Assembly (NCBI RefSeq): GCF_900119185.1
Contig: NZ_FPJE01000036.1
Coordinates: 1-42,106 of the forward strand
Reading direction: 5' to 3'
Length of the DNA stretch: 42,106 bases
Source of the DNA: Sinomicrobium oceani
GTDB lineage: Bacteria; Bacteroidota; Bacteroidia; Flavobacteriales; Flavobacteriaceae
Shown here: positions 1,316 through 31,600 of the stretch, in pieces
Layout: every line of letters starts with the position of its first letter
Position numbering within the stretch: position 1 is the stretch's first letter
The notes under the pieces: model-generated
What the model was told of the DNA's origin: nothing
The model's database searches: none
What the model saw: the letters and a program-made list of their open reading frames with translations, nothing else
Program-made: the position numbers and the translations under genes

Positions 1316-3166
<1,851 letters not shown>

Positions 3167-3168
3167 AA

Positions 3169-5255: not shown

Positions 5256-5257
5256 AC

Positions 5258-6037: not shown

Positions 6038-6053
6038 CCACACGACAAAAAAT

Positions 6054-7223
6054 ATGGCTATGACACTTCAGAACAACTCACATTCCGAAATTTCCTTAAC
6101 GTCAACAGAAAATCGGGATTTTTATGAGATCTTCAGTACCTATGACTGGCAGCACACAGAGAAAGACATCTATGCCAAAACCGTTGAAGATGTGCAAAAG
6201 GCGCTGCGCTCCGAGCGGAAAACCCTGGAAGACTTTAAGGCCCTGATTTCTCCGGCGGCACGTCCTTTTCTGGAAAAAATGGCTTCGGAAAGCATGAAGA
6301 TCACCCGTAGACGGTTCGGTAAGGTGATACAGATGTATGCCCCGATGTACTTGTCGAACGAGTGCCAGAATATCTGCACGTACTGCGGATTCAGCCTTAC
6401 CAATAAAATTCCGCGAAGGACACTTACCGACGAAGAAATTCTGAAAGAAGCGGTTTTCCTGAAGAAAAAAGGATACGATCATATTCTGCTGGTCACCGGA
6501 GAAGCTAACAGAACCGTCGGGGTCGATTATCTGAAAAATGCCATCCGGCTGATCCGTCCTTACTTTTCCAACATCAGTATAGAAGTTCAGCCTCTGGACA
6601 CCAACGAATATGAAGCCCTCATAGCCGAAGGCCTGTACGCCGTACTGGTTTACCAAGAAACATACCATGAATCCTGCTATAAAATTCATCACCCGAAAGG
6701 TAAAAAATCGAATTTTCGTTACCGGCTTCATACCCCGGACCGATTGGGAAAAGCCGGGATTCACAAAACCGGACTCGGAGCTTTATTCGGGTTGGAAGAC
6801 TGGAGAACAGATAGTTTTTTCACCGCGCTTCACCTCAGGTACCTGCAGAAACAGTACTGGAAAACACGGTATTCTATCTCCTTTCCCCGCCTTCGACCTC
6901 ATTCGGGAGGACTTGAGCCCAAAGTAGTCATGACCGATACGGACCTCGCTCAACTGATCTTTGCCTACCGGATATTCGACGAAGATGTGGAACTTTCCCT
7001 GTCTACACGGGAAAGTATGAATTTTAGGAACCATATCATTCAGCTTGGTGTTAATTCCATGAGTGCGGAATCCAAAACCAATCCCGGCGGTTATACGGTA
7101 GACCCTCAATCGCTGGAACAATTTGAGATCTCCGATGAGCGAAGTACGGAAGCTATTGCAGCCATGATCAGAAATAAAGGGTATGAAGTGGTTTGGAAAG
7201 ACTGGGAGAAGGGGTATAAATAA
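6054..7223 (+). CDS. thiH: 2-iminoacetate synthase ThiH
   Basis: A 389-residue radical-SAM protein. ThiH cleaves tyrosine to dehydroglycine (2-iminoacetate) for ThiG. The iron-sulfur cysteines are Cys104, Cys108 and Cys111 in CQNICTYCGFS (CX3CX2C). The C-terminal BATS-type region contains ISFPRLRPH and SLSTRE. No thiO glycine oxidase is seen, consistent with the anaerobe-compatible ThiH route. It ends the tight part of the thiamine operon. A start at 6060 is also possible. Confidence 0.97.
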   Translation: MAMTLQNNSHSEISLTSTENRDFYEIFSTYDWQHTEKDIYAKTVEDVQKALRSERKTLEDFKALISPAARPFLEKMASESMKITRRRFGKVIQMYAPMYLSNECQNICTYCGFSLTNKIPRRTLTDEEILKEAVFLKKKGYDHILLVTGEANRTVGVDYLKNAIRLIRPYFSNISIEVQPLDTNEYEALIAEGLYAVLVYQETYHESCYKIHHPKGKKSNFRYRLHTPDRLGKAGIHKTGLGALFGLEDWRTDSFFTALHLRYLQKQYWKTRYSISFPRLRPHSGGLEPKVVMTDTDLAQLIFAYRIFDEDVELSLSTRESMNFRNHIIQLGVNSMSAESKTNPGGYTVDPQSLEQFEISDERSTEAIAAMIRNKGYEVVWKDWEKGYK

Positions 7224-7262
7224 GAAGGATAATATTATGGTTTCCCTTTTCAACATTTTTAG

Positions 7263-7270
7263 TATGTTTG
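7263..7270 (+). promoter_or_regulatory. Promoter -7 element ahead of the outer-membrane gene
   Basis: TATGTTTG matches TAnnTTTG perfectly. It lies 93 bp before the start of the frameshifted outer-membrane gene and 40 bp after thiH ends. GTTT (7240-7243) is a rough match at the -33 position. It suggests that the inserted gene is transcribed independently of the thi operon. Confidence 0.5.
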
Positions 7271-7363
7271 ACAAATTTTACAAATCATAGCCAAAAGGTA
7301 ATCCCTCCCCCAACCTGTCTGTAACATTAGACATCACTATCCTGCTGGTTTAAAAATTAACTT

Positions 7364-8589
7364 ATGCAAAAAAAACTACTTGTCCTTTTTGTCACAATGC
7401 TTTGTGCCCGTTCTTATGCTCAGATTTCTTTTGAAAAAGGATATTTCATTGATGAGTCCGAACGAAAAACGGAATGCCTGATTAAAAATATCGATTGGAA
7501 AAATAACCCTTCGGAGTTCGAATACAAGCTTTCACAAGATGGTGTATCCAAAGTCAAAACAATTAAAACAACCAAAGAGTTTGGTATTACGGGATATTCT
7601 AAATTTATAAGGGCCCATGTCAATATAGATCGGTCTAACGATGAAAGGATCAGTTCCCTGAGCACTACCAGGGCTCCCGATTTCCACAAAGAAGAACTCT
7701 TCCTCAAAGTCCTGATCGAAGGTAAAGCCAGTCTTTATTACTACGAAGGCGGAAATACCAAGCGCTATTTTTTCAAGCGTGAAGACCAAAGCGAAATACA
7801 ACCACTGATCTTTAAGAAGTATATCACTCAAAACAACAAGATAGGAACCAATGTAGGCTATAAACAGCAACTCTGGGATGCCTTGAAATGTGAGGAAATT
7901 AGCAGGAGCACCATAGAGAGGCTCGATTACACGCAAAGTTCTCTGGCTAAAATCTTTATTAAATATAATTCGTGTACCTCATCTGAATATATCAGTTATA
8001 AAAAAGGACAAAACTAAAGCTTCATTTAGCTCTGCGCCCGGGAGTCAAGTTTTCTTCCCTGGATCTACAAATAGCTTCCAAAAACAGACCACAGGTAGAA
8101 TTTGGCAATAAGACAGGATTTCGACTGGGAATAGAAGGGGAATTTATTCTTCCCTTTAACAACAATAAATGGGCAATATTGGTAGAACCCACCTATCAGT
8201 ATTATAAAGCCGAAGAAACTGTAAACGTCAATGATGTTTCGGGTCGAAAGATTATTTCCCGAATAGATTATAAATCTATAGAGCTTCCGATTTCTGTCAG
8301 GCATTATTTTTACCTGAACGATACATCCAAATTATATATCAATGCCGCAATCGTTTTGGATTTTGACCAGGATTCTTCGTTGAGAATTACCCGTGCGGAT
8401 GGCAGTAGTCTTTATCCCAGGATTGACCTCGATTCTTATACCCATTTGGCATTAGGAGCCGGCTATACCATAAATGACAAATATAGCCTGGAGTTGAGAT
8501 ATCAATCGAGACAAATAGTACGCTACGGTGGGCAATGGGACTCAGACTACAGGAGCTTATCTGTTATCTTAGGGTACAGACTATTTTAG
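7364..8589 (+). pseudogene. Frameshifted outer-membrane beta-barrel protein
   Basis: Two reading frames join into one protein of about 408 residues. The first part (7364-8017, 217 aa) begins with a signal peptide (MQKKLLVLFVTMLCARSYAQ) and a soluble domain. The second (about 8005-8589, in the -1 frame) continues LALRPGVKFSSLDLQ and ends in alternating beta strands finishing LSVILGYRLF, as in Bacteroidota PorT-like outer-membrane barrels. The break is at an A6 run (8000-8005): a seventh A, or a -1 slip, restores the frame as SYKKRTKLKLHLAL. Apart from this the coding is intact, so the mutation is recent, a sequencing error, or bypassed by slippage. The function is unknown. It splits thiH from thiF. 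Confidence 0.75.
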
Positions 8590-8641
8590 TTTTTCACCTA
8601 TATCGGCTGCCTGTGTTTTAACGGAAGAACCATTTTATAAG

Positions 8642-8660
8642 CAGGTAAATAGCTTACCTG
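8642..8660 (+). terminator. Weak hairpin after outer-membrane gene
   Basis: CAGGTAA (8642-8648) and TTACCTG (8654-8660) form a perfect 7-bp stem with a 5-nt loop. The following tract is A-rich rather than T-rich, so it is a weak terminator candidate or an mRNA end stabiliser. Confidence 0.3.
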
Positions 8661-8706
8661 AGGTTTAAAAAAGAGAGGCTATCTATCATAAGACGGTACT
8701 ATTTGT

Positions 8707-8714
8707 TATTTTTG
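8707..8714 (+). promoter_or_regulatory. Promoter -7 element upstream of thiF
   Basis: TATTTTTG matches TAnnTTTG. It would give a leader of about 70 nt before thiF. No clear -33 element was found. It may allow thiF expression despite the interrupting gene. Confidence 0.4.
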
Positions 8715-8791
8715 AAATTCAGCAGTGTATCTCAGTAATCATTTTACGAATACGCTACATAGATTATTTTGGTATTTAAATTAAGACATCC

Positions 8792-9886
8792 ATGTTTTCC
8801 AAAGGTGAACAACAACATTATCACAGGCAGCTTATCCTGGATGAGATCGGAGAAAGCGGGCAAGCCCGTTTGAAAGATGCAAAAGTGCTGGTTATAGGTG
8901 CAGGCGGACTGGGATCGGCTATATTGCCGTATCTCGCGGCGGCTGGTGTCGGGCATGTCGGAATTATAGACCATGATACTGTTGCCACGTCGAACCTCCA
9001 CCGGCAGGTGATGTTCGGCATGGACGATGTCGGAAAAAACAAAGCTGTAACTGCCGCCGGTAAGTTATCACAACTCAATCCGCACATCGGTATCACCTCC
9101 TATCCGGAAGCACTGACCTCCGGAAATGCCGGGATGTTGTTTTCCGGATATGATATTATCGTGGACGGTTCGGACAATTTCCCTACACGTTATCTTGTCA
9201 ATGATGCTGCTGTAATGTGTGGTAAGCCTGTTGTTTTCGGTTCTATTTTTAAGTTCGAAGGACAGATTTCCGTTTTCAACTACCTGGATGGCCCTACCTA
9301 TCGTTGTCTTTTTCCGGAGCCTCCGCTTCCGGGAACCTCCCCTAATTGTTCTGAAATCGGGGTGCTGGGTGTTTTACCGGGAATCATAGGAACCCTCCAG
9401 GCCAATGAAGTCATTAAAATAATCTGCGGCATAGGAGAAGTACTGCGCGGAAAGCTCTTTACCATAGACTGTCTGTCGCTGCAGACCCAGGTTTTACGGT
9501 TTAAAAAAACAGTCTTCGAAATTCCCGAAACACTTCAGGATACCGGTTATGACTGCAACTTTGCCCCGGAAGATCTCGAGATCACACCGGAACAGTTGTC
9601 CAAAAGCCTTCCGGAAGAATCTGTCCTGATCGATGTAAGAACACATACCGAAAGAGAAAAATACACTATAAGTTCCGTGATAAACGGTCCGGATGACATA
9701 CATATTCCCCTTGACGAACTCATGTCGCGTGACCAGGACATTCCTGAAAACAAACATCTTATCTTCTATTGCCAAAGCGGAATACGTAGCTTACAGGCGG
9801 TACGGACATATCTTCAGAAATATCCTCTTGCCAAAGTTTCGAGTGTAAAGGGCGGACTAAATGCCGTGCTTAATTCCGTAAACTGA
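8792..9886 (+). CDS. thiF: ThiF/MoeB-type adenylyltransferase with rhodanese domain
   Basis: A 364-residue protein. The N-terminal E1-like domain (1-245) has the ATP motif GAGGLGSA (36-43), a HRQ segment and the active cysteine Cys186 in SPNCSEIGVLG. The C-terminal rhodanese domain (about 265-364) has its catalytic cysteine, Cys327, in FYCQSGIR. Such proteins adenylate the Gly-Gly end of ThiS (or MoaD) and can also carry the persulfide. The paired zinc cysteines of E. coli ThiF/MoeB are mostly absent: only Cys172 of the first CXXC remains and there is no second pair. ThiS adenylation is inferred from the locus; a MoeB role cannot be excluded. Confidence 0.88.
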   Translation: MFSKGEQQHYHRQLILDEIGESGQARLKDAKVLVIGAGGLGSAILPYLAAAGVGHVGIIDHDTVATSNLHRQVMFGMDDVGKNKAVTAAGKLSQLNPHIGITSYPEALTSGNAGMLFSGYDIIVDGSDNFPTRYLVNDAAVMCGKPVVFGSIFKFEGQISVFNYLDGPTYRCLFPEPPLPGTSPNCSEIGVLGVLPGIIGTLQANEVIKIICGIGEVLRGKLFTIDCLSLQTQVLRFKKTVFEIPETLQDTGYDCNFAPEDLEITPEQLSKSLPEESVLIDVRTHTEREKYTISSVINGPDDIHIPLDELMSRDQDIPENKHLIFYCQSGIRSLQAVRTYLQKYPLAKVSSVKGGLNAVLNSVN

Positions 9887-9896
9887 AACAAATAAC

Positions 9897-9904
9897 TATT
9901 TTTG
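9897..9904 (+). promoter_or_regulatory. Promoter -7 element of purK
   Basis: TATTTTTG matches TAnnTTTG and is followed by CGGAGG. It would give a leader of about 20 nt before purK. No convincing -33 TTTG was found. Confidence 0.5.
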
Positions 9905-9930
9905 CGGAGGAAAATACAAACACAGCATAG

Positions 9931-11082
9931 ATGAACTACTTTTCTTCCGATTTTAAACTGGGCATTCTGGGTGGCGGACAACTGGGTAAAATGTTGCTAT
10001 ACGAGACCCGCAAGTACGATATATATACTTGTGTCATGGACCCGGCAGAAGATGCCCCCTGCCGTATAGCATGTAATGAGTTTCTAACCGGTGACCTTAT
10101 GGATTTTGACGCGGTTTATGAATTCGGAAAAAAAGTGGACGTGCTGACCTTCGAAATAGAGAATGTCAATGTAGCTGCCCTGGATAAACTGGAAAAAGAA
10201 GGGATTAAGGTTTATCCTTCTCCAGCCACCTTAAAAACCATCCAGAACAAAGCCAAACAGAAATTATTTTACGTGGATCACGAGATCTCTACGGCCCCCT
10301 TTACACGTTTTGCCTATACGAGCGAGATTGGTACCGCACTGAAAAACGAAAGCATTCGTTTCCCTTTTGTATGGAAAAGTGCACAATTCGGTTATGACGG
10401 TCGCGGTGTCAAGGTCATCCGTACCCATTCCGATCTCGAAGGCCTTCCCAATGTAGAATGTATCACGGAAGAGATGATCCCCTTTAAAAACGAACTGGCT
10501 GTTATTGTAGCCCGGAACAGTAAAGGTGAGGTCGCTACGTATCCGGTTGTGGAAATGGAATTTCATCCTACGGCAAACCAGGTCGAATATGTGATATGCC
10601 CGGCCCGGATAGATGCCGCCGTTGCCGAAAAAGCCCGGCATATTGCACTCCGCGTTTCGGAAGCTTACCGGCACGTAGGGCTTCTGGCCGTAGAAATGTT
10701 CCAGACCCAAAACGATAATATCCTCGTCAATGAGGTAGCTCCCAGGCCGCACAATAGCGGACATTACAGCATTGAAGCCAGCTATACCAACCAGTTCGAG
10801 CAACACCTCAGGGCCATTCTCGGACTACCACTCGGAAATACCGATAGCAAGGTAGGTGGCATTATGGTGAACCTCACCGGGGAAGAAGGATATACCGGAA
10901 AGGTAAACTATCAGAATATCGAAGACATTATGAAAATGGACGGAGTAACCCCGCATATTTACGGGAAGAAAGAAACCCGGCCTTTCCGTAAAATGGGACA
11001 CGTCACCATTGTCAATAAAGATATTGCCAAAGCGAGAGAAATCGCCGAAAAGGTAAAAAACACGATTAAAGTCGTAAGTTGA
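9931..11082 (+). CDS. purK: 5-(carboxyamino)imidazole ribonucleotide synthase PurK
   Basis: A 383-residue ATP-grasp enzyme that makes N5-carboxyaminoimidazole ribonucleotide from AIR, bicarbonate and ATP in purine synthesis. The N-terminal GILGGGQLGKML (about 11-22) is the PurK nucleotide-site signature. The ATP-grasp region has WKSAQFGYDGRGVK, and the metal-binding end has NEVAPRPHNSGHYSIEA. Length is normal for the family. It pairs with purE 61 bp downstream, the usual two-step route in bacteria. AIR is also the ThiC substrate, so the purine and thiamine loci side by side share an intermediate. Confidence 0.97.
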   Translation: MNYFSSDFKLGILGGGQLGKMLLYETRKYDIYTCVMDPAEDAPCRIACNEFLTGDLMDFDAVYEFGKKVDVLTFEIENVNVAALDKLEKEGIKVYPSPATLKTIQNKAKQKLFYVDHEISTAPFTRFAYTSEIGTALKNESIRFPFVWKSAQFGYDGRGVKVIRTHSDLEGLPNVECITEEMIPFKNELAVIVARNSKGEVATYPVVEMEFHPTANQVEYVICPARIDAAVAEKARHIALRVSEAYRHVGLLAVEMFQTQNDNILVNEVAPRPHNSGHYSIEASYTNQFEQHLRAILGLPLGNTDSKVGGIMVNLTGEEGYTGKVNYQNIEDIMKMDGVTPHIYGKKETRPFRKMGHVTIVNKDIAKAREIAEKVKNTIKVVS

Positions 11083-11143
11083 ATCTCTTGCCGAATCCTA
11101 ACGGGACAAACGTCAAGAAGAAGATTTAAATAAAAATTAAAGG

Positions 11144-11629
11144 ATGAGTAAAGTAGCCGTAATTATGGGAAGTACCAGCGATCTGCCCGTCATGCAGGAA
11201 GCAGTGGACATATTAAAAGGTTTTGACATTGAGGTCGAAGTGGATATTGTGTCTGCTCACCGCACTCCGGAGAAAATGTTCGAGTTCGGAAAAAAAGCAC
11301 ATGAGCGGGGTATTGCCGTGATCATAGCTGGTGCCGGAGGTGCCGCGCACCTCCCCGGTATGGTCGCCTCCCTGTCTCCCTTACCCGTAATAGGTGTACC
11401 CGTAAAAAGTAGTAATTCCATCGATGGCTGGGATTCGGTACTATCAATTCTGCAAATGCCCGGCGGAGTTCCTGTAGCTACCGTTGCACTCAACGGTGCG
11501 AAAAACGCGGGTATCCTTGCTGCACAGATCATAGGAAGCAGTGACAAATGCGTTCTTGATAAAGTTATTGCATACAAAGAGGGCCTGAAGATAAAGGTTA
11601 TCGAAGGCGCTAAAAGCATAAACTCATAA
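11144..11629 (+). CDS. purE: N5-CAIR mutase PurE
   Basis: A 161-residue class I PurE that converts N5-CAIR to CAIR. The N-terminal IMGSTSDLPVMQEA carries the phosphate-binding Ser and Asp residues. SAHRTPEKM holds the conserved active-site histidine, and AGAGGAAHLPGMVA is the family's glycine-rich loop. It is the second gene after purK and is followed by a bidirectional terminator. Confidence 0.97.
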   Translation: MSKVAVIMGSTSDLPVMQEAVDILKGFDIEVEVDIVSAHRTPEKMFEFGKKAHERGIAVIIAGAGGAAHLPGMVASLSPLPVIGVPVKSSNSIDGWDSVLSILQMPGGVPVATVALNGAKNAGILAAQIIGSSDKCVLDKVIAYKEGLKIKVIEGAKSINS

Positions 11630-11643
11630 ATAAAATCGCATCG

Positions 11644-11668
11644 AAGGGGACCTCTCATAGGTCCCTTT
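11644..11668. terminator. Bidirectional terminator between purE and lanthipeptide cluster
   Basis: A 10-bp stem (AAGGGGACCT, 11644-11653; AGGTCCCTTT, 11659-11668, with one wobble) and a 5-nt loop lie between two convergent genes. The arms are A/T-rich at the base, suiting termination from both sides. Confidence 0.75.
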
Positions 11669-11682
11669 CATTATAAAAAGCG

Positions 11683-12600
11683 TTACACCGCCTTTTCAGA
11701 AACCTGCTTCTTCTTTTTCTTTTTGGCTATCGAAGACCTGTAATAGCGATACAAAAAGTCGTAGCATACCATTTCATGCATCCGGTTTTTGGACTTGAAC
11801 AAGCGGTTCATCAGCATGTGAATATAACTTGCCATCAGATCATTTACCGGAACTTCCAGGGTCTCTTTGTTCTTACGGGCAATCATTTCCTCTGCAACAG
11901 GGGCTATACCGGTTTTCTTCTGCGCCAGAATTTCCAGTATAGGCTCATAATCCGGATCGGAACCGGCATCAAAAACCATGAAACGATCTATTTTTTCCCG
12001 GTGCAGACGATACTTTCCGTCCAGCTGTTTTTTTAAAGGTCTGCCCATACCAAATTCTTCTCCGAAACCTGTTTTTAAGCGCTCCATAAGCTGCAGTTTC
12101 TCATCTTCGGAATACCCGAAACTATCCAGATGTTCATCCATGGCCCGTAACGCGAACAGCCATCGCAGTTCTTCTCCTTCGTCTCCTTCGATCATATCCA
12201 GGAAATTCACAATCATCTCACTGTCGTGATAAAACAGGGATTCCGCGAGTTCCATCGTCTTTCTTCCGTAACGTTCGAGCTCTCTCTTATACGTATCGGT
12301 TTGTATCTGCCAGACCAGGTCCTTGTCCATGAAGTCTTTTAGTCCCGGGAGCAGGCTATTGATAACGGCTGCTATGGCTTCGGGATGATTATAGTGAAAT
12401 CTCACCCTCAGATGGTGACCGGAATCGGAGTAACGTATAAAAAACCACTTGTCGATAACTCCGCGGTCAATAAGCTGCCGGGCCACGGGACGAATGATCT
12501 GGGTAAGAATCACGTCTGAAGTTTTGGGTCCGGTATATATTTTATAGAACAACCAGCTATCGCCGAGAATGAAATTGCGTTGTATAGGTTTATTGTTCAT
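11683..12600 (-). CDS. LanB C-terminal domain protein (SpaB_C / thiopeptide-type)
   Basis: A protein of about 305 residues starting MNNKPIQRNF at 12600. The frame stays open to 12690, but that stretch overlaps the dehydratase gene too far to be likely. It matches the SpaB C-terminal or thiopeptide-type bacteriocin biosynthesis domain: SWLFYKIYTGPKTSDVIL at the start, then WFFIRYSDSGHHLRVRF, which is the family hallmark. In full-length LanB this domain eliminates glutamate from glutamylated Ser/Thr to give dehydro-residues. Here it is a separate gene whose start overlaps the dehydratase stop by 11 bp. The C-terminus is lysine-rich. Confidence 0.9.
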   Translation of the reverse strand: MNNKPIQRNFILGDSWLFYKIYTGPKTSDVILTQIIRPVARQLIDRGVIDKWFFIRYSDSGHHLRVRFHYNHPEAIAAVINSLLPGLKDFMDKDLVWQIQTDTYKRELERYGRKTMELAESLFYHDSEMIVNFLDMIEGDEGEELRWLFALRAMDEHLDSFGYSEDEKLQLMERLKTGFGEEFGMGRPLKKQLDGKYRLHREKIDRFMVFDAGSDPDYEPILEILAQKKTGIAPVAEEMIARKNKETLEVPVNDLMASYIHMLMNRLFKSKNRMHEMVCYDFLYRYYRSSIAKKKKKKQVSEKAV

Positions 12601-14833
12601 TTTTCTGTTTTTTACTATTGTAAAAGGAGAGTACGATCTGGTTGGTATAATGCTGTCCCCTATCGTCCCTGATCTTACTCCCTTTGGCAAACAAAAATTC
12701 CGTGAGCTTAAAGCCGGACCTCTTCTTTACCGTATCCAGAAGCATTCTTACCGAAGTAAGATTTCCGAAATTGATCAGTAACTCATTATCTCCGTCCGTA
12801 AGCATGGTATACTGCGGGATTTTTCGTTTATCACAAAAATCCCGGATGCTCTTGCGGAGTTTTTCATCATCCTTTTGCTCCTTTTTTAACGGTTCTACAT
12901 CCTCCTTCTTCAGGTTCCATGTGGCTTCGGAAAGTATGATATTTTCGTATTCCACACGGGGAATAAACTCGTATTCTCCGGCAAAAGGCCCGAGATTAAA
13001 CCCCACTCCCGACCGCAATCCCTGAGTTTGCATATCGCACAAAAACTGATAGATAGGCAGCGCATTAGAACTGTAATTATGGGCATTTGTCAGGTGAGGG
13101 ACAACTTCTTTGTTCAGTTTACGGGAGCGCAACAATACATTCCTTCCGTACTTTACGGAAATGTGCAGATCGTCAAGAGGCAACTGTTCATCTTCATTCA
13201 ACACAGATTTTGCCAGGTAGGGAATTTCATAATTCCGGAATGCCGGACGCATTAATATATTTCCTACCCTCGACTCGGGCAGATGTACGATCTCGGCCAG
13301 GATTTTATCGTTCTTAGCGTGTTTTTCGGAGTCGATAATTTGTTGCGTGTACAGGTTCAGAGCTTCATCTCCGTGACAAAACCTTCCCAAAAGATTGGCA
13401 GCGCTTGATCCGCCAGCCCCTCCAAAACGATATTTTTGTACACCTTCTTCCTCTACCAGCTCAATCATAGCCGAAAGGGTATCGGGCAAGTCATTCCAGT
13501 CCGCTTCGAAATTTGCGAAATCCTCGTCTGTAACTGTTATAAGGTATGCTCCCGTGCCTATGGCATAGGTTAGTTTTTTCTGTATGATATTCTGTACCGC
13601 ACTCCAACGGATTTCAGAAACCTCGTGCTTTGCCCTTTTACCCGGAATAATAAGATCATCCACCAGCGGATTGACATCTCCCGATCCCTGATCCTGTTTA
13701 TATCCTATCCCCATTTCTACATCAAGGGCTTTTGCCAAAGGTACTTCGCGTTCTTCAAAACGTTCGTAAAACGCTTTTTTAAACTGGTCGAGTAATGTAC
13801 TTTTTGGAGGCAGTGTTATTTTATTGAGGAAAGTGATTCCTTTTTTCAGCGTTTCCACCACAGCTGTATCGAGCGTATTTTTTTCGGTATTCAGAATCAT
13901 ATCGGTCTGAAACAGGTATTTCAGTTCAAAACCGGTCCCCAATTGTTTCAGGTATTCACTGAGTTCAAGATATTTCCCGGGAGCGTTGCCGATATGATTA
14001 TCCAGTTCCGCAAGACGAATATCTATGTCGTCCAGTATTTGCAGTAAGGGCACTGTACCTTCCAGTTTGCGCAAGACCTTTTTGATCTGCTCCAGAAATT
14101 CGGGTCCGGATACGGAAGGCTCCAGTTCGCTCGTCAGAAGCTGGCTTTCTACAAGCTCTTCGACAAAACCTTCTGCCTCTTCGTACGTAATCTCCTCATC
14201 GACCAGACTGTTTGCCAGATCCTCCAGCAAGGCACCCCGACCGGCTTTCTCCAGCACCCCGGTAAGATATTCGGAATTGTCTACAGCTACAATATGATGA
14301 TGGCGTTTGCTGTTTACATATTTATATTCTATGTATCGCAATTGATCGCCCGCCGGATATATACTGGTATTGGGATAAAACAACAATTGTTTCCTGATAT
14401 TTCCGTTTTTAACCAGGTCCTGCGAAAGGGCCACCAGGTAATTCATATCCAGTCGGGTATGTCTCCGGTTTTTCTGCGCTCCGCCGAGTTGTATTTCGGT
14501 CTGCGCTCCCAATACTCCTATACTACACCCTGCAAAAAGTCCGAAAGGTGTGCAACGGGAAGACATTCTGGACAGGTATTTGAGTAAGGCATAACGCAGT
14601 TTATCGGTCTTTTTTTTATCTGTGACCGTTCCGGCTTCCCAACGGGTCAGTTCTTCATAAAGCGGCGGAGAAGCCAGGAACACGGCTTCCCGGATGAGTG
14701 TATCCTTGAATAATGCTTTTAATTTTTCTTCCGGAATACGATCTCCCCCTGTAAGGTCTTTGTAAAACTCAAGAGGGAAAAGTGGTGTTCGCAATACAAA
14801 ACCGGGAAAATTTTGATATGAGTTATCGTTCAT
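12590..14833 (-). CDS. Lantibiotic dehydratase LanB, N-terminal (glutamylation) part
   Basis: A 747-residue protein of the lantibiotic dehydratase N-terminal family. The signature SRMSSRCTPFGLFAG is at 88-102. Its known role is to glutamylate Ser/Thr of the precursor using Glu-tRNA; elimination is then done by the separate C-terminal-domain gene just downstream. Full-length LanB is about 1000 residues, so this is a true two-gene split and not a recent frameshift, since both halves are complete. It probably acts in the cytoplasm with LanC on the four nearby precursors. Confidence 0.93.
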   Translation of the reverse strand: MNDNSYQNFPGFVLRTPLFPLEFYKDLTGGDRIPEEKLKALFKDTLIREAVFLASPPLYEELTRWEAGTVTDKKKTDKLRYALLKYLSRMSSRCTPFGLFAGCSIGVLGAQTEIQLGGAQKNRRHTRLDMNYLVALSQDLVKNGNIRKQLLFYPNTSIYPAGDQLRYIEYKYVNSKRHHHIVAVDNSEYLTGVLEKAGRGALLEDLANSLVDEEITYEEAEGFVEELVESQLLTSELEPSVSGPEFLEQIKKVLRKLEGTVPLLQILDDIDIRLAELDNHIGNAPGKYLELSEYLKQLGTGFELKYLFQTDMILNTEKNTLDTAVVETLKKGITFLNKITLPPKSTLLDQFKKAFYERFEEREVPLAKALDVEMGIGYKQDQGSGDVNPLVDDLIIPGKRAKHEVSEIRWSAVQNIIQKKLTYAIGTGAYLITVTDEDFANFEADWNDLPDTLSAMIELVEEEGVQKYRFGGAGGSSAANLLGRFCHGDEALNLYTQQIIDSEKHAKNDKILAEIVHLPESRVGNILMRPAFRNYEIPYLAKSVLNEDEQLPLDDLHISVKYGRNVLLRSRKLNKEVVPHLTNAHNYSSNALPIYQFLCDMQTQGLRSGVGFNLGPFAGEYEFIPRVEYENIILSEATWNLKKEDVEPLKKEQKDDEKLRKSIRDFCDKRKIPQYTMLTDGDNELLINFGNLTSVRMLLDTVKKRSGFKLTEFLFAKGSKIRDDRGQHYTNQIVLSFYNSKKQKNEQ

Positions 14834-14888
14834 TCGTCAGATTTGGTTATGGGTATTTCAATACATTTTATCGCGGGAAAATTTCTGC

Positions 14889-16097
14889 TCAACCTATCAT
14901 CAGGCACTCATCCCACGAATGGTCTCCGGACAAATGACTAATGATACTCAATCCTATTCCCGCTATTCCTTCGAGGAGGTTTAACTCTTCTTTCCATTCA
15001 CTCTCCCGGCCCTTCCACTGTTTATAACCGGAATAGCCATCGGGGTGCACCGCTTTTTCGAGTCCGTCTCTGATCCAGAAATCTGCTGCTTCCCTGAAGA
15101 TTTGCTCTCCTGTTTCGGAATACATCCGATTAAACATCTGGGCATTGCCATACGAGCCGTGACAAACGCCGGCATCCCGGACCATATGACTTTCCGGCGA
15201 GGTTCTGCCTGCGGCATGCCGGAGAATATCCAGGGCTTCTGCATGGAGTTCCTCATCCTTTAAATGCCTGGAGGCCTGCCACAGGGATATACCTATACCG
15301 AGATCGCCGTAGCACCAGGCCAGACGACTTACACTATCTCCTTCTTCTCCGGCTTTCACCCAGCTCGGAAACAACGAAATCCCATTCTGGTCTTTGTTAC
15401 GGCAGTTACGTATAAAGGCTATTCCTCCTTTCAGCATTTCCCCGACCTGGTCTCTGAACGTTTCATACGCGTACAGCCTGGACAAAAAGTTAACGATACT
15501 CGACATTCCGTGAGACAAACTCAGGTTATACCCGGTCTCGCCGGTCTCCGGTACGAGTGTGGAAAGCCATTTTACGGTATTCCCTTCCGTCTCTGCCAAA
15601 TCCAGTAAAAGGACAACGAGCTCCCCAAGGTAATTTTCATATATCTGCCTTCGCTCCTCTGAGACCGTATTCCGGTAACGCTTAAAAAAATAAAAACCAT
15701 AGCCCAGGGCACCGTGAAGAAAATCATAATTTCCGTTTTTCATGTCAGAACGCATCACACGGTACAGATAAGGGTCGAGTTCCCCGAGCAGTTCATCACT
15801 TTCGGCATCCATAAAACCCTGCTGTTCCAGATGGTCCAGCACCCAGCCGGTACCGGCCAGTCCGGAGCAATAGGTAGGAAAGCCGAATCCTTCATTGATT
15901 CGGTCTATACTACTGCTGAGTACCTCAACTCCTGTATCGGCAAACGCATCCGTATCCGTATATTTGGCGTAATAAAAATGAAACAGAGCAATTCCCGATA
16001 TCCCCGCAAGTACCCCGGTCTGATCATTTTCCGAATATTTTTCCTTGAGAATAGCGTGTATTTCGCTGAGCTTTTGGTGCAAAAGTTCCTTTTCCAT
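14889..16097 (-). CDS. LanC-family lanthionine cyclase
   Basis: A 402-residue alpha/alpha-toroid protein. LanC adds cysteine thiols to dehydroalanine/dehydrobutyrine to form lanthionine rings. The three zinc ligands are visible: Cys262 in WCYGDLGIG and Cys312-His313 in GVCHGSYGNA. Other family motifs include GVLAGISGIALF near the N-terminus and SLSHGMSSI in the middle. All catalytic residues appear present, so it should be active. It lies between the precursor genes and LanB. Confidence 0.95.
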   Translation of the reverse strand: MEKELLHQKLSEIHAILKEKYSENDQTGVLAGISGIALFHFYYAKYTDTDAFADTGVEVLSSSIDRINEGFGFPTYCSGLAGTGWVLDHLEQQGFMDAESDELLGELDPYLYRVMRSDMKNGNYDFLHGALGYGFYFFKRYRNTVSEERRQIYENYLGELVVLLLDLAETEGNTVKWLSTLVPETGETGYNLSLSHGMSSIVNFLSRLYAYETFRDQVGEMLKGGIAFIRNCRNKDQNGISLFPSWVKAGEEGDSVSRLAWCYGDLGIGISLWQASRHLKDEELHAEALDILRHAAGRTSPESHMVRDAGVCHGSYGNAQMFNRMYSETGEQIFREAADFWIRDGLEKAVHPDGYSGYKQWKGRESEWKEELNLLEGIAGIGLSIISHLSGDHSWDECLMIG

Positions 16098-16254
16098 GCA
16101 TAAAGATAATGTAGGTTCTGGTCATATTATGTGATGTCCTGTACCAGATAAACAGATCCGTAAAATTCCTGAAAAACTAATTTTAAAATACAAGCAAAGC
16201 TATATCCCAGTATTTTGAATATAGCTTTGGTTAAATACCTTAAGTTTAATGAAA

Positions 16255-16518
16255 TTACATGCAGGGTCCGCATGTTCTGCAATGAATGGGATCGGAAACA
16301 GGATGTACATCGGTGGTACAATTGTATTCGGTAACACATCCGCCCGTTCCGCAATTACCGGTTCCGCAGCCATTGGTTCCACAATCATTCGTAGCACAGG
16401 TAGCATACTCATCGGTATTACAGCCTATGGCTGTCTCCCATCCTCCCTTGATTTCATCCAGATTAGATACTTTTTCTTTTTTGAGAATGAGTTTTCGTGT
16501 AAGCTTCTTTTTTTTCAT
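16255..16518 (-). CDS. Class I lanthipeptide precursor LanA1
   Basis: An 87-residue peptide. The leader (1-26) begins MKKKKLTRKLILKKEK and ends EIKGG, the double-glycine site for the C39 exporter. The core (27-87) is long for a lanthipeptide, about 61 residues, with ten cysteines and many Thr. It contains a repeated GTxxC pattern (NDCGTNGCGTGNCGTGGC) and ends HCRTCGPCM. The first ATG is used. It sits below a terminator-like hairpin that separates it from the other three precursors, and just upstream of lanC. Confidence 0.9.
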   Translation of the reverse strand: MKKKKLTRKLILKKEKVSNLDEIKGGWETAIGCNTDEYATCATNDCGTNGCGTGNCGTGGCVTEYNCTTDVHPVSDPIHCRTCGPCM

Positions 16519-16599
16519 AATGAGGTCTGTTTTTGGTTAGGACTCTTCTAATTTATAAAAATTAGCTTAGAACTACCTGTGATTTTCCTTTTTTAACGT

Positions 16600-16643
16600 T
16601 AAAAAGAAAAGCCACCCCAGGATTTTACCCCCCGGGGCAGCCA
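16600..16643 (-). terminator. Terminator/attenuator between precursor genes
   Basis: Read on the minus strand, GCTGCCCC and GGGGTGGC can pair (with two wobbles), with further GG/CC pairing inside, and are followed directly by TTTTCTTTTT. It lies after the LanA2 gene and before LanA1. It should cut or reduce read-through from the exporter and precursor genes into LanA1, lanC and lanB. Confidence 0.65.
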
Positions 16644-16697
16644 ATACTCAACATTTATATTTCAAAAACAATTTTCTTTACCGAAAACAGGTGCTCT

Positions 16698-16901
16698 TTA
16701 CGGGCACCCTCCCGTAGTTCCTCCACAATTACCGTCGCCGGTAGCCGGATCACAATTTTTTTGGGTTGGCGGATCACAAACCGGCCACCAACTATTTCCG
16801 CAGCCATAACTTATCCAGTCTCCTCCGCGTACGGTACCTGAATGAAGTGCAGAGACCGTCTGCTTGTTTAGTTTCAGACTATTCAAACTTTTTTTCTTCA
16901 T
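16698..16901 (-). CDS. Class I lanthipeptide precursor LanA2
   Basis: A 67-residue peptide starting MKKKSLNSLKLNK (an upstream in-frame ATG at 16910 adds three residues). The leader ends TVRGG at residue 27. The core starts DWISYGCGNSWWPVC and ends GNCGGTTGGCP, with five cysteines. It is related to LanA4 (YGCG then SW-P-C) and carries the same K-K-x-L leader. Confidence 0.88.
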   Translation of the reverse strand: MKKKSLNSLKLNKQTVSALHSGTVRGGDWISYGCGNSWWPVCDPPTQKNCDPATGDGNCGGTTGGCP

Positions 16902-16911
16902 GATCGACATT

Positions 16912-17082
16912 TTAATTGTTACATACTGTCGGGCACTCTCCTTTTATGGATTGTGTCGGTCCGGGACAACTCTGACAGGTAAGCCCGGTAACCCCACCAC
17001 GGATATGATCTGTATTTTGAGGATCAAGTTGACTGATAATTATTTTATTCAGGTTCAGATTTTTAAGCTTCTTTTTTTTCAT
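16912..17082 (-). CDS. Class I lanthipeptide precursor LanA3
   Basis: A 56-residue peptide starting MKKKKLKNLNLNK at 17082. The frame is open to 17199, but only this ATG begins the family leader. The leader ends DHIRGG (residue 30). The core of about 26 residues, VTGLTCQSC through CPTVCNN, has four cysteines and several Ser/Thr, a typical size for a classical lanthipeptide. A perfect GC-rich hairpin (17128-17141) lies just upstream. Confidence 0.88.
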   Translation of the reverse strand: MKKKKLKNLNLNKIIISQLDPQNTDHIRGGVTGLTCQSCPGPTQSIKGECPTVCNN

Positions 17083-17127
17083 AAGTAAGGAATTTAAGTG
17101 CCAGATAGATTCTCCATATTTTCTCAT

Positions 17128-17141
17128 CCGGACCTGTCCGG
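17128..17141 (-). other. Short hairpin upstream of LanA3
   Basis: CCGGAC (17128-17133) and GTCCGG (17136-17141) form a perfect GC-rich inverted repeat about 45 bp upstream of the LanA3 start. It may shape the precursor mRNA or its processing. No T-run follows it. Confidence 0.4.
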
Positions 17142-17184
17142 GGAGAAAACGGACAACATGGTTTTCTAAACATATCAGTAGAAT

Positions 17185-17206
17185 ACTCCCCTTGAACAAG
17201 GGGAGT
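17185..17206 (-). other. Perfect hairpin after LanA4
   Basis: ACTCCCCTT (17185-17193) and AAGGGGAGT (17198-17206) make a 9-bp stem with a 4-nt loop, 15 bp after the LanA4 gene end. The minus-strand sequence that follows (ATTCTACT) is only mildly T-rich. It may be a partial terminator or an RNA-stabilising or processing element between precursor genes. Confidence 0.55.
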
Positions 17207-17220
17207 CTGATGTCAGGATA

Positions 17221-17376
17221 TTATCCTATACAAGGTCTTACCGCCGAACATGCCGGTGGCCAGGAATCTCCACAGCCATAGGTTGGCCAGTCTTCCCCTC
17301 CTTTTATGTTTTCAGGGGTGAAATTGGAAATTGTCTTCTTGTTCAGCTTTAACGATTTAAGGCTTCTTTTTTTCAC
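17221..17376 (-). CDS. Class I lanthipeptide precursor LanA4 (GTG start)
   Basis: A 51-residue peptide. The frame runs open to 17640, but that stretch is antisense-frame overlap with the adaptor gene. The leader homology starts exactly at a GTG codon (17376): (V)KKRSLKSLKLNKKTIS, ending ENIKGG. The core is EDWPTYGCGDSWPPAC followed by SAVRPCIG, about 24 residues with three cysteines. It closely resembles the start of the LanA2 core. It lies 52 bp after the HlyD-type gene. Confidence 0.85.
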   Translation of the reverse strand: MKKRSLKSLKLNKKTISNFTPENIKGGEDWPTYGCGDSWPPACSAVRPCIG

Positions 17377-17428
17377 GGTTGTAATGTTTAAGATTCGGAC
17401 TTTCAATATAGGAAAAAATCTACGAATC

Positions 17429-18748
17429 TTAAGTGTTACGGGAAAATATTTTTGTAAGCTGATAAAATATACGTTGTAAAATGCTGAGTTCTTCCGTAAT
17501 GATCTCTGCATTTCCCTGCATTTCCTGGCGGAATTCCAATTTCTTTTCAAAAGATGTTTCCAGGCTACCGACATTGACATAAATAGAGTACATAGCTTCC
17601 CCTTTTTTTGGCACAGCAGATATATCGACAATTTCTCCACGTAAGCTGCCCCATTCTTCGTAAGGATAATTATCCAGTTTTATAAGTACTTCCTGTCCTA
17701 CCTTAACCTTACCGGAGTTTTGCACCGGCATAGTCACCTGTCCAATAAGAGAATCGGTTTCTTCCGGCACCACCGTAAATACGATATCTCCTGCTTTGAC
17801 ATTCTGGTATTTGTGCCTGATATCAAACATAGAAACTTTTCCTTTCATAGGACTTTTCAGTACATAAGCCAGTTCCCAGTTATGGATCTCGTTTTTAAGG
17901 ATTTCCAACCCGCCTTCCAGTTCCTGCCTGTAGCTATAGGTCAGTTCTTTACCTGTAATTGTAGATTGGGTTTTGTTTCCGCTCAGGGAAGCAATGGATA
18001 TCCTTGTATTGGATATGGCGCTTTTCAGGTTTTCATACCGCTGTTTATCAGCGAGATAACTCCGGGACACCGCATCAAATTCCGATTTGGAGATTACCCC
18101 TTTGTCAAGCAGCGCCTTGTTTCTGGCATATTCCGATTCGGAAAGGGCCAGTTCCTGGGCAAATAATTCCAGCTGATTTTGTTGTTTTTTCAGAAGGTCA
18201 TACTGTTCTTCAATTTGTTGTGTTGCGGCAAAAATCTCTTTCTTATTGGGTTCCAGGAGGTGAAAGAGTACATACTTCTGATATTGCGAGGCAAAATTGG
18301 AATACGCCTGCCGGATACTTCCCAGCTGAAGGTGCGGAGGAAAAATCCCGGGTATCGAATCCGGAGGGACCAACTCGGGCGTAAAATCCGAAAGCTTCCT
18401 TTTCAGCCAATACACATCCTGCAGATTTGCAGTATTCTCTATTTCGGCAAGGATTTCGTTTTCTACCACCGGCTGATCTGCTGCTACGTACAAATTGGTC
18501 AGTTTCCCATTGCTGTTCGCCTGTATATATGCCGGGGGAATTTTGGTTGTTATGGTGATACGTGCGGTGATCATGTCATCATAGCTGATGAGCGCACTTC
18601 CTATAATAAGGAGGATTACAATAATAAATACCACGGTAGTTCCCCACCGGATCATCCAGTGTGGTGCCTCCCCGAGAATTTCCTGTACCTGGTCAGAGCG
18701 TTCGTCCAGGAAATCTATTTTTTTCTTTTTGTCTTTAGCTTTACTCAT
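17429..18748 (-). CDS. HlyD-family membrane fusion protein
   Basis: A 439-residue protein with a basic N-terminal cytoplasmic segment, one transmembrane helix (about 33-55) and a periplasmic part. It has a split biotinyl-lipoyl-like domain (YIQANSNGKLTNLYV and LKSPMKGKVSMF) around a helical hairpin rich in Gln/Glu (about 150-270). Such adaptors link an inner-membrane ABC exporter to an outer-membrane channel. It lies 38 bp after the C39 ABC transporter, so it should take part in lanthipeptide export. No TolC-like gene is present in the window. Confidence 0.9.
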   Translation of the reverse strand: MSKAKDKKKKIDFLDERSDQVQEILGEAPHWMIRWGTTVVFIIVILLIIGSALISYDDMITARITITTKIPPAYIQANSNGKLTNLYVAADQPVVENEILAEIENTANLQDVYWLKRKLSDFTPELVPPDSIPGIFPPHLQLGSIRQAYSNFASQYQKYVLFHLLEPNKKEIFAATQQIEEQYDLLKKQQNQLELFAQELALSESEYARNKALLDKGVISKSEFDAVSRSYLADKQRYENLKSAISNTRISIASLSGNKTQSTITGKELTYSYRQELEGGLEILKNEIHNWELAYVLKSPMKGKVSMFDIRHKYQNVKAGDIVFTVVPEETDSLIGQVTMPVQNSGKVKVGQEVLIKLDNYPYEEWGSLRGEIVDISAVPKKGEAMYSIYVNVGSLETSFEKKLEFRQEMQGNAEIITEELSILQRIFYQLTKIFSRNT

Positions 18749-18786
18749 AGGTTTTCCGAAAAGAATTTAAAGGGCTTGTATACTCA

Positions 18787-20988
18787 TTATTCTCCAAGTT
18801 CGAGCTGGTTCTTTACCAGGGTAAAATACGCTCCTTTTTTCTTTGCCAGTTCTTTGTGCGTTCCCTGTTCTATGATCTTTCCTTTTTCCAGCACGATGAT
18901 CTGATCGGCATTTTTTACTGTACTCAGGCGGTGAGCTACGATAACCACGGTCTTGCCCTTATAGAATTCCTCCAGGTTTTCCATAATAACTTTTTCATTG
19001 TTCGCATCAAGTGCACTGGTAGCTTCATCAAAAAAGATATATTTAGGGTCTTTATATACCGATCGGGCTATAAGGATCCGCTGTCGTTGTCCCCCACTGA
19101 TATTTACACCACTCGATCCTATTTTGGTATTATAACCGGAAGGTTGTTCTTCTATAAATTCCTCGATATTCGCTACATTGACGGCATGGATAAGCCTTTC
19201 CTTACTGATAATCCCTTCCGAATCGGACTCCGTAATATTGCGGGCTATGGTATCACCGAAGAGAAATCCGTCCTGCATGACCGATCCGCATGCTTTTCGC
19301 CATACCGTGGTATTCATGTTTTTTAATCTCACATTACCTACCTGTATGGTCCCCTCCGTAGGATCGTAAAACTTGAGAAGGAGTTTTACAAGCGTTGTCT
19401 TTCCGCTTCCGCTCGCCCCTACTACCGCAGTGACCTTTCCTTCTGGAATTTCAAAAGTAAGGTCATCCAGGACAAGTGGTGAAGAATTTCCCCCGTACCT
19501 GAAGCTGACATGCTGAAATTTGACTGTTTTATCTTGCGGAAGATCAATGATATCGTCGTCAAAAGGGTTTTCTTCATCATCCTTGGCGTGAATTTCGGAT
19601 AACCGCTCCAAACTTATCTTAGCATCCTGTCCGGCCTGAATAAAGGTGATAAAATTGTTGATAGGGAGGTTGAGCTGACCTATAATATATTGTACCGAAA
19701 GCATCATACCCAATGTCAGATCTCCCTCTATGACCGATTTGGCAGCTATAAAGGTGATCAATATGTTTTTCAGTTCATTGAGAAATTTCCCTCCTGTATT
19801 CTGTGTCTGGGAAAGCGACAATCCCTTTATGGATATTTTGAAGAGCCTTACCTGTATGGCTTCCCACTCCCATCGCCGCCGGCGTTCGGACCCGTTGAGT
19901 TTTATTTCCTGCATTCCGGATATCAACTGATATAAGCTGCTCTGATTGTCGGATGACTGATCGAAACGTTTATAATCCAGTTCGGCCCGCTTCTTCATAA
20001 ACAAGAGGGTCCAGCCGATATAGAGTATCGAACCGAATAGGAATACCAAAAAGATCCCCATATTGTAATACGCCAGTACAACCCCGAAAATTATCACATT
20101 AAAAGCGGAAAACAAGGTATTTAATGTCGTGGTCGACAGAAAGCTCTGTATCCGGTTATGATCGTATATCCGCTGGATGATATCGCCCGTATTTTTGGAA
20201 TCGAAAAAGGCAATAGGTAACCGCATCAGTTTGATGAGGAAGTCAGATATCAGGTTGATGTTTACCCGACTGGTCACATGCAGTAAGATCCACCCTCTTA
20301 TCAGTTCTACCGTAGTCTGGGAAATAAAAAGGGTAAGCTGTGCCACCAGTACGAGATAAACAAAGTTGAGATTCTGATAATTTATACCATAATCCACCAC
20401 AGCCTGGGTGAGAAAGGGAAAAATAAGCTGCAAAAGACTCCCGACAATCAACCCGAGGAACAATTGGGTAAGGTGTTTTTTATACGGTTTGAAATACCAG
20501 AACAGGAATCTGAAACCGTATTCGACCTTGGTATCTCTCCCGGTTTCGTAAAAATTCGGTGTCGGTTCGAGCAAGAGCAGATAACCCTCATCGTCCATAT
20601 CGGCACTTTTACCTATCCAGCCGGCAACAAACTCTTCCCTACTGTACTTGACCAATCCATGTGCAGGGTCGGCAACAAATACCGTTCCTTTTTTTATCGC
20701 ATAAATAACAACAAAATGCCTTTGTCGCCAATGAGCAATGCAAGGCAGTGGTACTTCCTCCTCAAGGGTCTTGAAATCGATACTTACGGCAAGAGAATGA
20801 AAGCCGATACTTTCGGCAGCTTCGGCTATCCCCCCGAGAGAAACACCTTCTCTGGTAATGTTGGCCTTACGGCGCAAAAAATCGGTAGCGTAAGATCTCC
20901 CGTAATACTTAGCTATCATCCGGAGACAGGTAGGACCGCAATCCATTTGATCCAACTGTCTGTAAAACGGAAATTTCTTCAGGTTCAT
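18787..20988 (-). CDS. C39 peptidase-containing ABC exporter (LanT-like)
   Basis: A 733-residue three-domain exporter. The N-terminal C39 cysteine peptidase (1-130) has Cys17 in QMDCGPTC, His91 in RHFVVIY and Asp107 in VADPAHG. The membrane domain (about 165-440) has several helices. The ATPase has Walker A GASGSGKTT (524-532), signature ISGGQRQR (about 631) and Walker B YIFFDEATSALD. Known relatives cut leaders after double glycine while exporting the peptide, which matches the GG ends of all four precursors. It is the first gene of the cluster. Confidence 0.95.
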   Translation of the reverse strand: MNLKKFPFYRQLDQMDCGPTCLRMIAKYYGRSYATDFLRRKANITREGVSLGGIAEAAESIGFHSLAVSIDFKTLEEEVPLPCIAHWRQRHFVVIYAIKKGTVFVADPAHGLVKYSREEFVAGWIGKSADMDDEGYLLLLEPTPNFYETGRDTKVEYGFRFLFWYFKPYKKHLTQLFLGLIVGSLLQLIFPFLTQAVVDYGINYQNLNFVYLVLVAQLTLFISQTTVELIRGWILLHVTSRVNINLISDFLIKLMRLPIAFFDSKNTGDIIQRIYDHNRIQSFLSTTTLNTLFSAFNVIIFGVVLAYYNMGIFLVFLFGSILYIGWTLLFMKKRAELDYKRFDQSSDNQSSLYQLISGMQEIKLNGSERRRRWEWEAIQVRLFKISIKGLSLSQTQNTGGKFLNELKNILITFIAAKSVIEGDLTLGMMLSVQYIIGQLNLPINNFITFIQAGQDAKISLERLSEIHAKDDEENPFDDDIIDLPQDKTVKFQHVSFRYGGNSSPLVLDDLTFEIPEGKVTAVVGASGSGKTTLVKLLLKFYDPTEGTIQVGNVRLKNMNTTVWRKACGSVMQDGFLFGDTIARNITESDSEGIISKERLIHAVNVANIEEFIEEQPSGYNTKIGSSGVNISGGQRQRILIARSVYKDPKYIFFDEATSALDANNEKVIMENLEEFYKGKTVVIVAHRLSTVKNADQIIVLEKGKIIEQGTHKELAKKKGAYFTLVKNQLELGE

Positions 20989-27736: not shown

Positions 27737-27752
27737 AAACCGTGGTCTTTAA

Positions 27753-30362: not shown

Positions 30363-30415
30363 ATTTTTGATTACTTGCGATTATTTTATGTGTCTTGCAT
30401 AATGGTTGCGATAAG

Positions 30416-30448
30416 CCCGGTAACGGCGTTTGGCGACAAGTTACCGGG
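30416..30448 (-). promoter_or_regulatory. Inverted repeat between fecR and fecA genes
   Basis: CCCGGTAAC (30416-30424) and GTTACCGGG (30440-30448) form a perfect 9-bp stem with a 15-nt loop. On the plus strand it is followed by TGTTTTTAT; on the transcribed minus strand there is no T-run. It may be an operator or an mRNA-processing hairpin separating regulator and receptor expression. Confidence 0.5.
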
Positions 30449-30506
30449 TGTTTTTATAGCTGGAGCAGCCGGTTATTCTATGAGGTATTGTACATTTTGG
30501 TATATT

Positions 30507-31478: not shown

Positions 31479-31600
31479 AGTTTTGCGGTTTACTATACCA
31501 ATAGTTCCACAAGCCGCAAAAAACCCTTAGTCCCTTCGGGAAAAATTAAAGTGTATACGGAAAAAGCGTGCTTTGGGTGAATAAATACCGGAAAAAGGAA

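Follow-up and report, generated by a model that had tools for sequence, protein, structure and literature searches.

Does a lanthipeptide gene cluster that encodes four dissimilar precursors serve only those four, or does its dehydratase also act on peptides encoded elsewhere in the genome? The question is raised by positions 11683-20988 of a stretch of 42,106 nucleotides from Sinomicrobium oceani (RefSeq assembly GCF_900119185.1, contig NZ_FPJE01000036.1; the whole stretch is referred to here as the window), where nine genes, all on the minus strand, make up a class I lanthipeptide cluster. It is probable, as far as gene content and its distribution can tell, that this cluster is a central locus ("hub") whose LanB dehydratase also serves scattered precursors. 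The fuller proposal, held with slightly less assurance, is that in some marine flavobacteria one split LanB would act on scattered precursors with variable cores, from about ten in the window genome to about a hundred (by extrapolation) in Kordia, and that this arrangement would be a separately arisen class I counterpart of the prochlorosins. Action of the hub LanB on the scattered precursors is the best account of the sharing of leaders, the co-occurrence of leaders with LanB, the presence of a single LanB in several genomes and the split system of one genome (G102, below). Confidence goes no further because leaders can also serve export alone.

In the proposed mechanism, the split LanB would place glutamate from glutamyl-tRNA on Ser and Thr residues of the core and then remove it, leaving dehydro-residues; rings would arise as LanC adds Cys thiols to these, and the C39 exporter would cut after the double glycine (GG) and, with its HlyD partner, export the peptide. 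The four precursors of the cluster would be recognised as substrates via their shared leader, and the hub LanB would also dehydrate, in trans, precursors with the same leader at unlinked loci without a LanB, in some cases with the help of a LanC encoded nearby. The analysis itself shows the genes with their domains and motifs, their conservation, the common leader, its co-occurrence with LanB and the number of LanB copies. The LanB, LanC and C39 reactions are established for these families; the activity of these particular enzymes, the action in trans and any biological role are inferred.

The sequence-only reading of this DNA had named a C39 exporter, an adaptor, LanC, a split LanB and four precursors as a class I cluster in a member of the Bacteroidota. 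All nine genes are found there with Pfam support (Table 1), and the class assignment was upheld by every sequence test run. The order of transcription is exporter, adaptor, precursors A, B, C and D, LanC, LanB glutamylation protein and LanB elimination protein, with an 11-base overlap between the two LanB genes (the ATG of the elimination gene is at 12600). The alignment of the glutamylation protein with NisB (4wd9) spans residues 38-709 (E 3.8e-25) and takes in the arginine-rich RMSSRCTPFGLF stretch, and the elimination protein can be aligned with the MibB-type structure 5ehk and with 9g04 via 'WFFIRYSD..HHLRVRF' and 'Y.RE.ERYG'; we take these aligned stretches, from the NisB literature, to be carriers of the catalytic residues. 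The LanC is alignable with the LanC structures 8byk and 6wq1 and retains the SHG, WCYG and CHG motifs at 195, 261 and 312, the latter two of which are presumably, from the NisC literature, the motifs that bear the zinc ligands; its best NCBIfam match is to LanM, with a score far under the LanM cut-off. Across three congeners, the exporter is 92-93% and the adaptor 85-88% identical, and the exporter is expected to cleave leaders after GG and export the peptides. Given this gene set, it is close to certain that the local enzymes would carry out class I chemistry on precursors A-D. Use of the split LanB for other chemistry, namely thiopeptide-type ring formation or amino-acid addition, is very improbable: split LanBs are also typical of thiopeptides according to the available part of PMC7268733, and the elimination protein matches the 'thiopeptide-type' model TIGR03891, but the LanC of the cluster has zinc motifs, the glutamylation protein is accompanied by just one elimination protein, and the cores are Cys-rich with Ser/Thr between the Cys.

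Table 1. Genes of the lanthipeptide cluster, in order of transcription (aa, amino acids; coordinates are those of the window)
Feature	Position	Strand	Supporting match or remark
C39 peptidase/ABC exporter, 733 aa	18787..20988	-	Pfam Peptidase_C39 4.6e-37, ABC_membrane, ABC_tran
HlyD-family periplasmic adaptor, 439 aa	17429..18748	-	Pfam HlyD_3 3.9e-13
Precursor A, 27-aa leader + 24-aa core	17221..17376	-	GTG start at 17376
Precursor B, 30-aa leader + 26-aa core	16912..17082	-	NF038153 29.0 bits
Precursor C, 27-aa leader + 40-aa core	16698..16901	-	NF038153 21.2 bits
Precursor D, 26-aa leader + 61-aa core	16255..16518	-	NF038153 23.3 bits
LanC cyclase, 402 aa	14889..16097	-	Pfam LANC_like 3.2e-43
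LanB glutamylation-domain protein, 747 aa	12590..14833	-	Pfam Lant_dehydr_N (PF04738) 1e-148
LanB elimination-domain protein, 305 aa	11683..12600	-	Pfam Lant_dehydr_C (PF14028) 8.9e-75; TIGR03891

The precursors share the leader consensus MKKxxLxxLxLxKxxxSxLx...GG, and the leader alignment (A2) fits an LxLxKx5L type that terminates in GG; the same cluster encodes a C39 protease. On the NCBIfam 'class I lanthipeptide' leader model NF038153 (cut-off 22 bits), precursors B and D score above the cut-off, C falls just below it and A is matched weakly (13.0 bits, E 0.09). Precursor C most probably begins at 16901, although an ATG in the same frame at 16910 could serve instead. After GG, the core lengths are those claimed earlier, and the cores are unlike one another. 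Core A has three Cys with one Ser/Thr ahead of each (T5-C8, S11-C16, S17-C22), core B has four Cys and six Ser/Thr, and core C has five Cys alternating with Ser/Thr, such that each Cys follows a Ser/Thr. Core D contains ten Cys and 12 Ser/Thr and has tandem T-x-x-C units, and for nine of the ten Cys there is a Ser/Thr since the previous Cys. A Ser/Thr-Cys ring pattern of this kind in A-D would be the expected product of the class I enzyme pair.

The cluster and its precursors were compared across six Sinomicrobium genomes, the window genome included (G297 is S. weinanense and G300 S. pectinilyticum). Four of the six have the hub LanB, in each case with the hub between purE and rlmB; the hub adjoins rlmB in the window genome and G300, while about 17 kb (G297) and about 15 kb (G299) separate the exporter from rlmB. 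The two other genomes, G094 and G301, gave no LanB, no LanC and no leader above the NF038153 cut-off (G301 gave one weak match, E 0.14). Precursor C is intact in all four hub-bearing genomes (orthologues in L049, L101 and L105). Each of the other three is intact in three of the four: A (orthologues at L101:11994-12146 and L105:8293-8445) survives in the fourth as a stump of its leader, B (orthologues in L049 and L105) has a divergent copy in the fourth, and D (orthologues in L101 and L105) is left as a leader remnant alone in L049 of G297. An extra paralogue of precursor A is present in the three congeners other than the window genome. The rate of non-synonymous substitution (dN) is below that of synonymous substitution (dS) in every congener pair with a computable dS, for sequences that are short and with dS often near or beyond saturation; core A has a dN of 0.02-0.06 against a dS of 0.64-0.92, and core B is the most variable, with a core dN of 0.20-0.23. 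By this measure the precursor cores are under purifying selection, and the conservation of the frames in relatives, the lack of which the sequence-only reading had named as a refutation, is borne out.

Pinensin-like clusters are reported to contain 'perception and import' genes (PMC10112250). In the window, PepSY-like, TonB-dependent receptor-like, FecR-like and FecI-like genes (named by eye) stand in a row at 26588-32158. They were considered as a part of the cluster and left out because tblastn gave no match to them in the flanks read of G297, G299 and G300, the comparison being incomplete in G297, where the stretch ends soon after an alanine-dehydrogenase-like gene.

Beyond the hub, a leader profile built on alignment A2 and seeded with 13 LanB-linked and five satellite leaders finds ten precursors in the window genome, of which four are at the hub and six at three unlinked loci. 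The first of these loci (L043, contig C33 at 304 kb) has three precursors beside a LanC with intact motifs. The second (L044, positions 9266-11743 of G000:C13:88000-107900, at about C13:99 kb) has two Cys-rich precursors, a LanC-like protein and a protein with a nucleotidyltransferase domain, and the third (L045, C8 at 17 kb) has one lone precursor; no LanB lies near any of the three. The pairing at L044 is comparable to that of LanC and nucleotidyltransferase in Kordia, which is described in the available part of the TrRiPP mining study (PMC11118758). A new dehydratase pathway at L044 was considered, given that no LanB is close by, and set aside, as its LanC-like protein is without the WCYG and CHG motifs and the pairing had already been reported there.

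Satellites of LanC and precursor related to those of the window genome are present in G299, G300, G102 and G138, and one with a CPPPG core recurs in three Sinomicrobium genomes and G138. In the satellite of G300 that is related to L044 (L108), the match to LanC falls in two separate frames. G102 has a LanB locus without a LanC, and the sole LanC found in that genome adjoins a precursor at a distance of about 284 kb, at a site that itself lacks LanB. One copy of the LanB N-domain is present in each of G179, G288, G077, G138 and G297. The window genome has two, that of the hub and a divergent one at C33:88 kb, in a cluster (L042, positions 1725-9492 of G000:C33:84000-103900) that encodes a C39-ABC protein of 737 aa, a LanB of 892 aa, a LanB-C of 297 aa and a LanC-like protein of 654 aa and is conserved in G299 and G300. 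The LanB pieces of L042 are just 23-26% identical to the hub LanB, and the 19.9 kb around them contain no match to the window-type leader better than E 0.7; the L042 LanB appears less likely to be the enzyme for the satellites.

The relation between leaders and enzymes was surveyed in 299 relatives at the level of Flavobacteriaceae, the same set being searched for LanB, LanC, the leader and C39. The leader profile has matches in 14 genomes: all 12 with a LanB of at least 51% identity, one of the 12 whose LanB is more distant, and one of the 275 without LanB. Fisher's test for the association of leader and LanB yields 2.5e-20 when any leader counts and 8.6e-9 for leaders distant from LanB, uncorrected for kinship. 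C39 exporters are present in 89 of the 299 genomes, 65 of which have no LanB match, and leaders accordingly follow LanB rather than C39, because only one of these 65 has any. That genome, G190, is the sole one with leaders and without LanB, and its two precursors are both broken just after the leader (L285, G190:C1:419000-433000, at 6625-6801 and 8639-8719); another frame at these positions offers a Cys-rich reading. The idea that the leader is a mere signal for C39 export was rejected on the basis of this survey.

The number of precursors at LanB loci was examined at 82 loci, of which 78 came from a search of named genomes (the best 80 of more than 554 matches) and four from a further genome search or from the window, with duplicates dropped. 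At least one leader-bearing precursor was found at 62 of the 82, and four precursors represent the high end without being unique, because four or more occur at 11 loci. Among the more distant LanB loci (L060-L067), LanB-N and LanB-C are usually accompanied by C39-ABC and HlyD, and the stretches read have no match to the window LanC. The products of these loci may be dehydrated peptides without lanthionine, because many of the candidate cores, identified by a loose pattern, are Cys-poor.

Scattered precursors are most numerous in Kordia periserrulae (G179), in which a first look gave 160 candidates; 28 were scored, and all 28, on ten contigs, passed. In about 1.1 Mb of DNA read, G179 has 64 distinct leader-bearing precursors for a single LanB, and G288, a congener of Leptobacterium flavescens (G077), has 30 in the DNA read, likewise with a single LanB, most of the stretches from both genomes having been chosen because of known matches. 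A less selected sample is given by the whole of contig C6 and the first 400 kb of C4 of G179 (C6 was already known to carry one match, and the known C4 match lies outside the stretch taken), with 16 precursors in 775,575 bases; three dinucleotide shuffles of the same bases gave no leader-profile match. Extrapolated to a genome of 4.7 Mb, this is about 97 precursors. At one locus away from the LanB (L269, G179:C1:231000-245000, at 5120-7844), two precursors lie with a transglutaminase-like protein and a LanC with intact motifs.

If the scattered peptides were substrates of the same enzymes, their cores should resemble those of the hubs. The dispersed cores number 106, with identical peptides counted once and the two broken precursors of G190 excluded, and one of the 106 (L314) is cut by the end of its stretch; L119, L120 and L165 were omitted from the counts of core order as duplicates of L105, L049 and L107. 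Cys makes up 12.5% of hub cores and 12.4% of dispersed cores, and Thr 11.3% and 12.3%, with at least one Cys in 103 of the 106. A Ser/Thr lies between successive Cys in 377 of 481 cases in hub cores, against 279.8 +- 7.8 in shuffled cores (z 12.5), and in 422 of 519 cases in dispersed cores, against 301.1 +- 8.7 (z 13.8); none of 500 shuffles reaches the observed value in either set. A hub counterpart in another genome or cluster was found at E<=0.01 for 14 of the 106, among them the CPPPG family and the pair formed by L045 and L107. The latter is a second close LanB/LanC cluster, in G300 (contig C150), 52-53% identical to that of the window and with precursors of its own, one of which is nearly identical to the L045 precursor. 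Around 94 dispersed precursors of G179 and G288, 793 neighbour counts include three of a LanC-like motif and four of a motif like that of radical S-adenosylmethionine (rSAM) enzymes, the latter from three distinct open reading frames identified by motif, not by domain search. Pfam matches of the neighbours of scattered genes (eight proteins at eight loci) are mostly to housekeeping or unrelated families.

Several of these observations weigh against service of the scattered precursors by the hub LanB. Leaders lie far from the LanB in only half (six of 12) of the genomes with a close LanB, the count of 12 of 12 includes leaders beside LanB, the seeding of the profile favours an association of leader with LanB, and related genomes, such as G077 and G288 of one genus, are not independent. 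Moreover, 20 of the 82 hub loci have no precursor at the threshold used, LanC matches occur without a detected LanB in G122 and G162, the satellite LanC of L044 has lost its zinc motifs, and G300 has two close LanBs, not one. The leader also resembles other GG leaders of the Bacteroidota, and its main role may be C39 export. On a purely local account, which we regard as unlikely although not negligible, the enzymes modify A-D, and the scattered peptides with GG leaders either leave through C39 transporters without modification or are substrates of other enzymes. In its favour, GG leaders are common to several Bacteroidota types of ribosomally synthesised and post-translationally modified peptide (RiPP), with precursor B scoring 19.1 bits, below the cut-off of 25, on the rSAM RiPP model TIGR04149; C39 exporters are common, G179 alone having four; and 92 of the 106 dispersed cores have no hub counterpart. 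Against it, C39-bearing genomes without LanB yield leaders in G190 alone, with both copies broken, dispersed and hub cores share the Ser/Thr-between-Cys order, the rSAM-like motif is rare among the neighbours in G179 and G288, and core families that sit at the hub in certain genomes are dispersed in others.

It is also improbable, rather more so than the local account, that scattered and satellite precursors are relics of formerly complete clusters and are no longer made. The lone L045 precursor with its orthologue beside the second LanB cluster of G300, the broken precursors of G190 and the reduction of precursor D in G297 are as would be expected of relics. However, nearly all of the 64 and 30 distinct frames in G179 and G288 have in-frame cores with Cys, Ser and Thr, and the satellite of LanC and CPPPG core recurs across the four genomes named above. 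The preferred interpretation remains that of a hub LanB acting in trans. The earlier claim that one set of enzymes handles unlike cores is valid for the four local precursors and seems to apply to unlinked loci as well.

The window cluster itself, judged by its genes, falls into the pinensin-like class I group with GG leaders and adds a new member to a kind of cluster that is already known. Pinensins (from Chitinophaga pinensis) and pinensin-like clusters are, like the window cluster, class I systems of the Bacteroidota with a split LanB and LanC (PMC10112250; PMC9248904, available part), and the split-LanB layout agrees with the text on pinensin-like clusters in PMC10112250. The likeness is drawn from the published descriptions, and the window cluster differs in having four precursors whose cores are unlike. 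For Sinomicrobium oceani PAP.21, a pinensin-like cluster has been reported whose predicted core, at 24 residues, is as long as core A of the window (PMC10112250), and our guess is that this cluster is perhaps the window locus. The part of Walker et al. 2020 that was available (PMC7268733) describes class I precursors of Bacteroidetes with an LxLxKx5L leader, a GG site, a C39 protease and a split LanB, all of which the window cluster shares, and places pinensin-type LanCs near class II cyclase domains. As described there, that survey looked around LanC, and precursors without a nearby enzyme were therefore outside its reach. A characterised class I product of the Bacteroidota is PedA15.2 of Pedobacter lusitanus NL19 (Bothwell et al. 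2021, via the available parts of PMC12328550 and PMC9576775). The products of the window cores are likely to be new, as had been suggested, although the type of cluster has been described before (PMC10112250 and the accessible part of PMC7268733).

It is the setting of scattered precursors that goes further than earlier descriptions. TrRiPP mining, in the available part of PMC11118758, found Kordia rich in lanthipeptide and rSAM-type precursors and up to 176 RiPP precursors in one Bacteroidota genome, and does not tie these precursors to one LanB; the terms 'LanB', 'dehydratase', 'in trans' and 'dispersed' are absent from the main text as available, and its supplement may say more. A search of the open-access literature, as far as its texts were available, gave no paper in which one LanB is named as the enzyme for scattered class I precursors, which is weak evidence of absence. 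The closest parallel is that of ProcM and SyncM, in which, from the available part of PMC10783134, one enzyme has many genome-scattered precursors with a shared leader and diverse cores, and action in trans has been shown. The gene pattern is present here too, with the action in trans inferred. Prochlorosins and synechococsins, on the accessible part of that text, depend on a class II LanM and Nif11-type leaders, whereas the flavobacterial system has a class I split LanB, a separate LanC and a short KKxLxxLxLxK leader. It may work like prochlorosin biosynthesis but is not a member of the ProcM group, because it has no LanM.

The prochlorosin system is the standard example of a single lanthipeptide enzyme whose substrates are encoded across the genome, and a question that it raises is what purpose such libraries serve. 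For the window alone the gain is smaller, namely four conserved, unlike and Cys-rich cores handled by one set of enzymes. If the scattered precursors are indeed served by the hub LanB, mining around LanB or LanC genes would miss many precursors, and mining with the leader model is itself incomplete, because just one of ten scattered Kordia precursors scanned passes the NF038153 cut-off. The flavobacterial system would then be a second, separately evolved library, in another phylum, with another leader and with a tRNA-dependent LanB in place of LanM, and both the leader-guided tolerance of the enzymes and the purpose of the libraries could be compared between a class I and a class II case.

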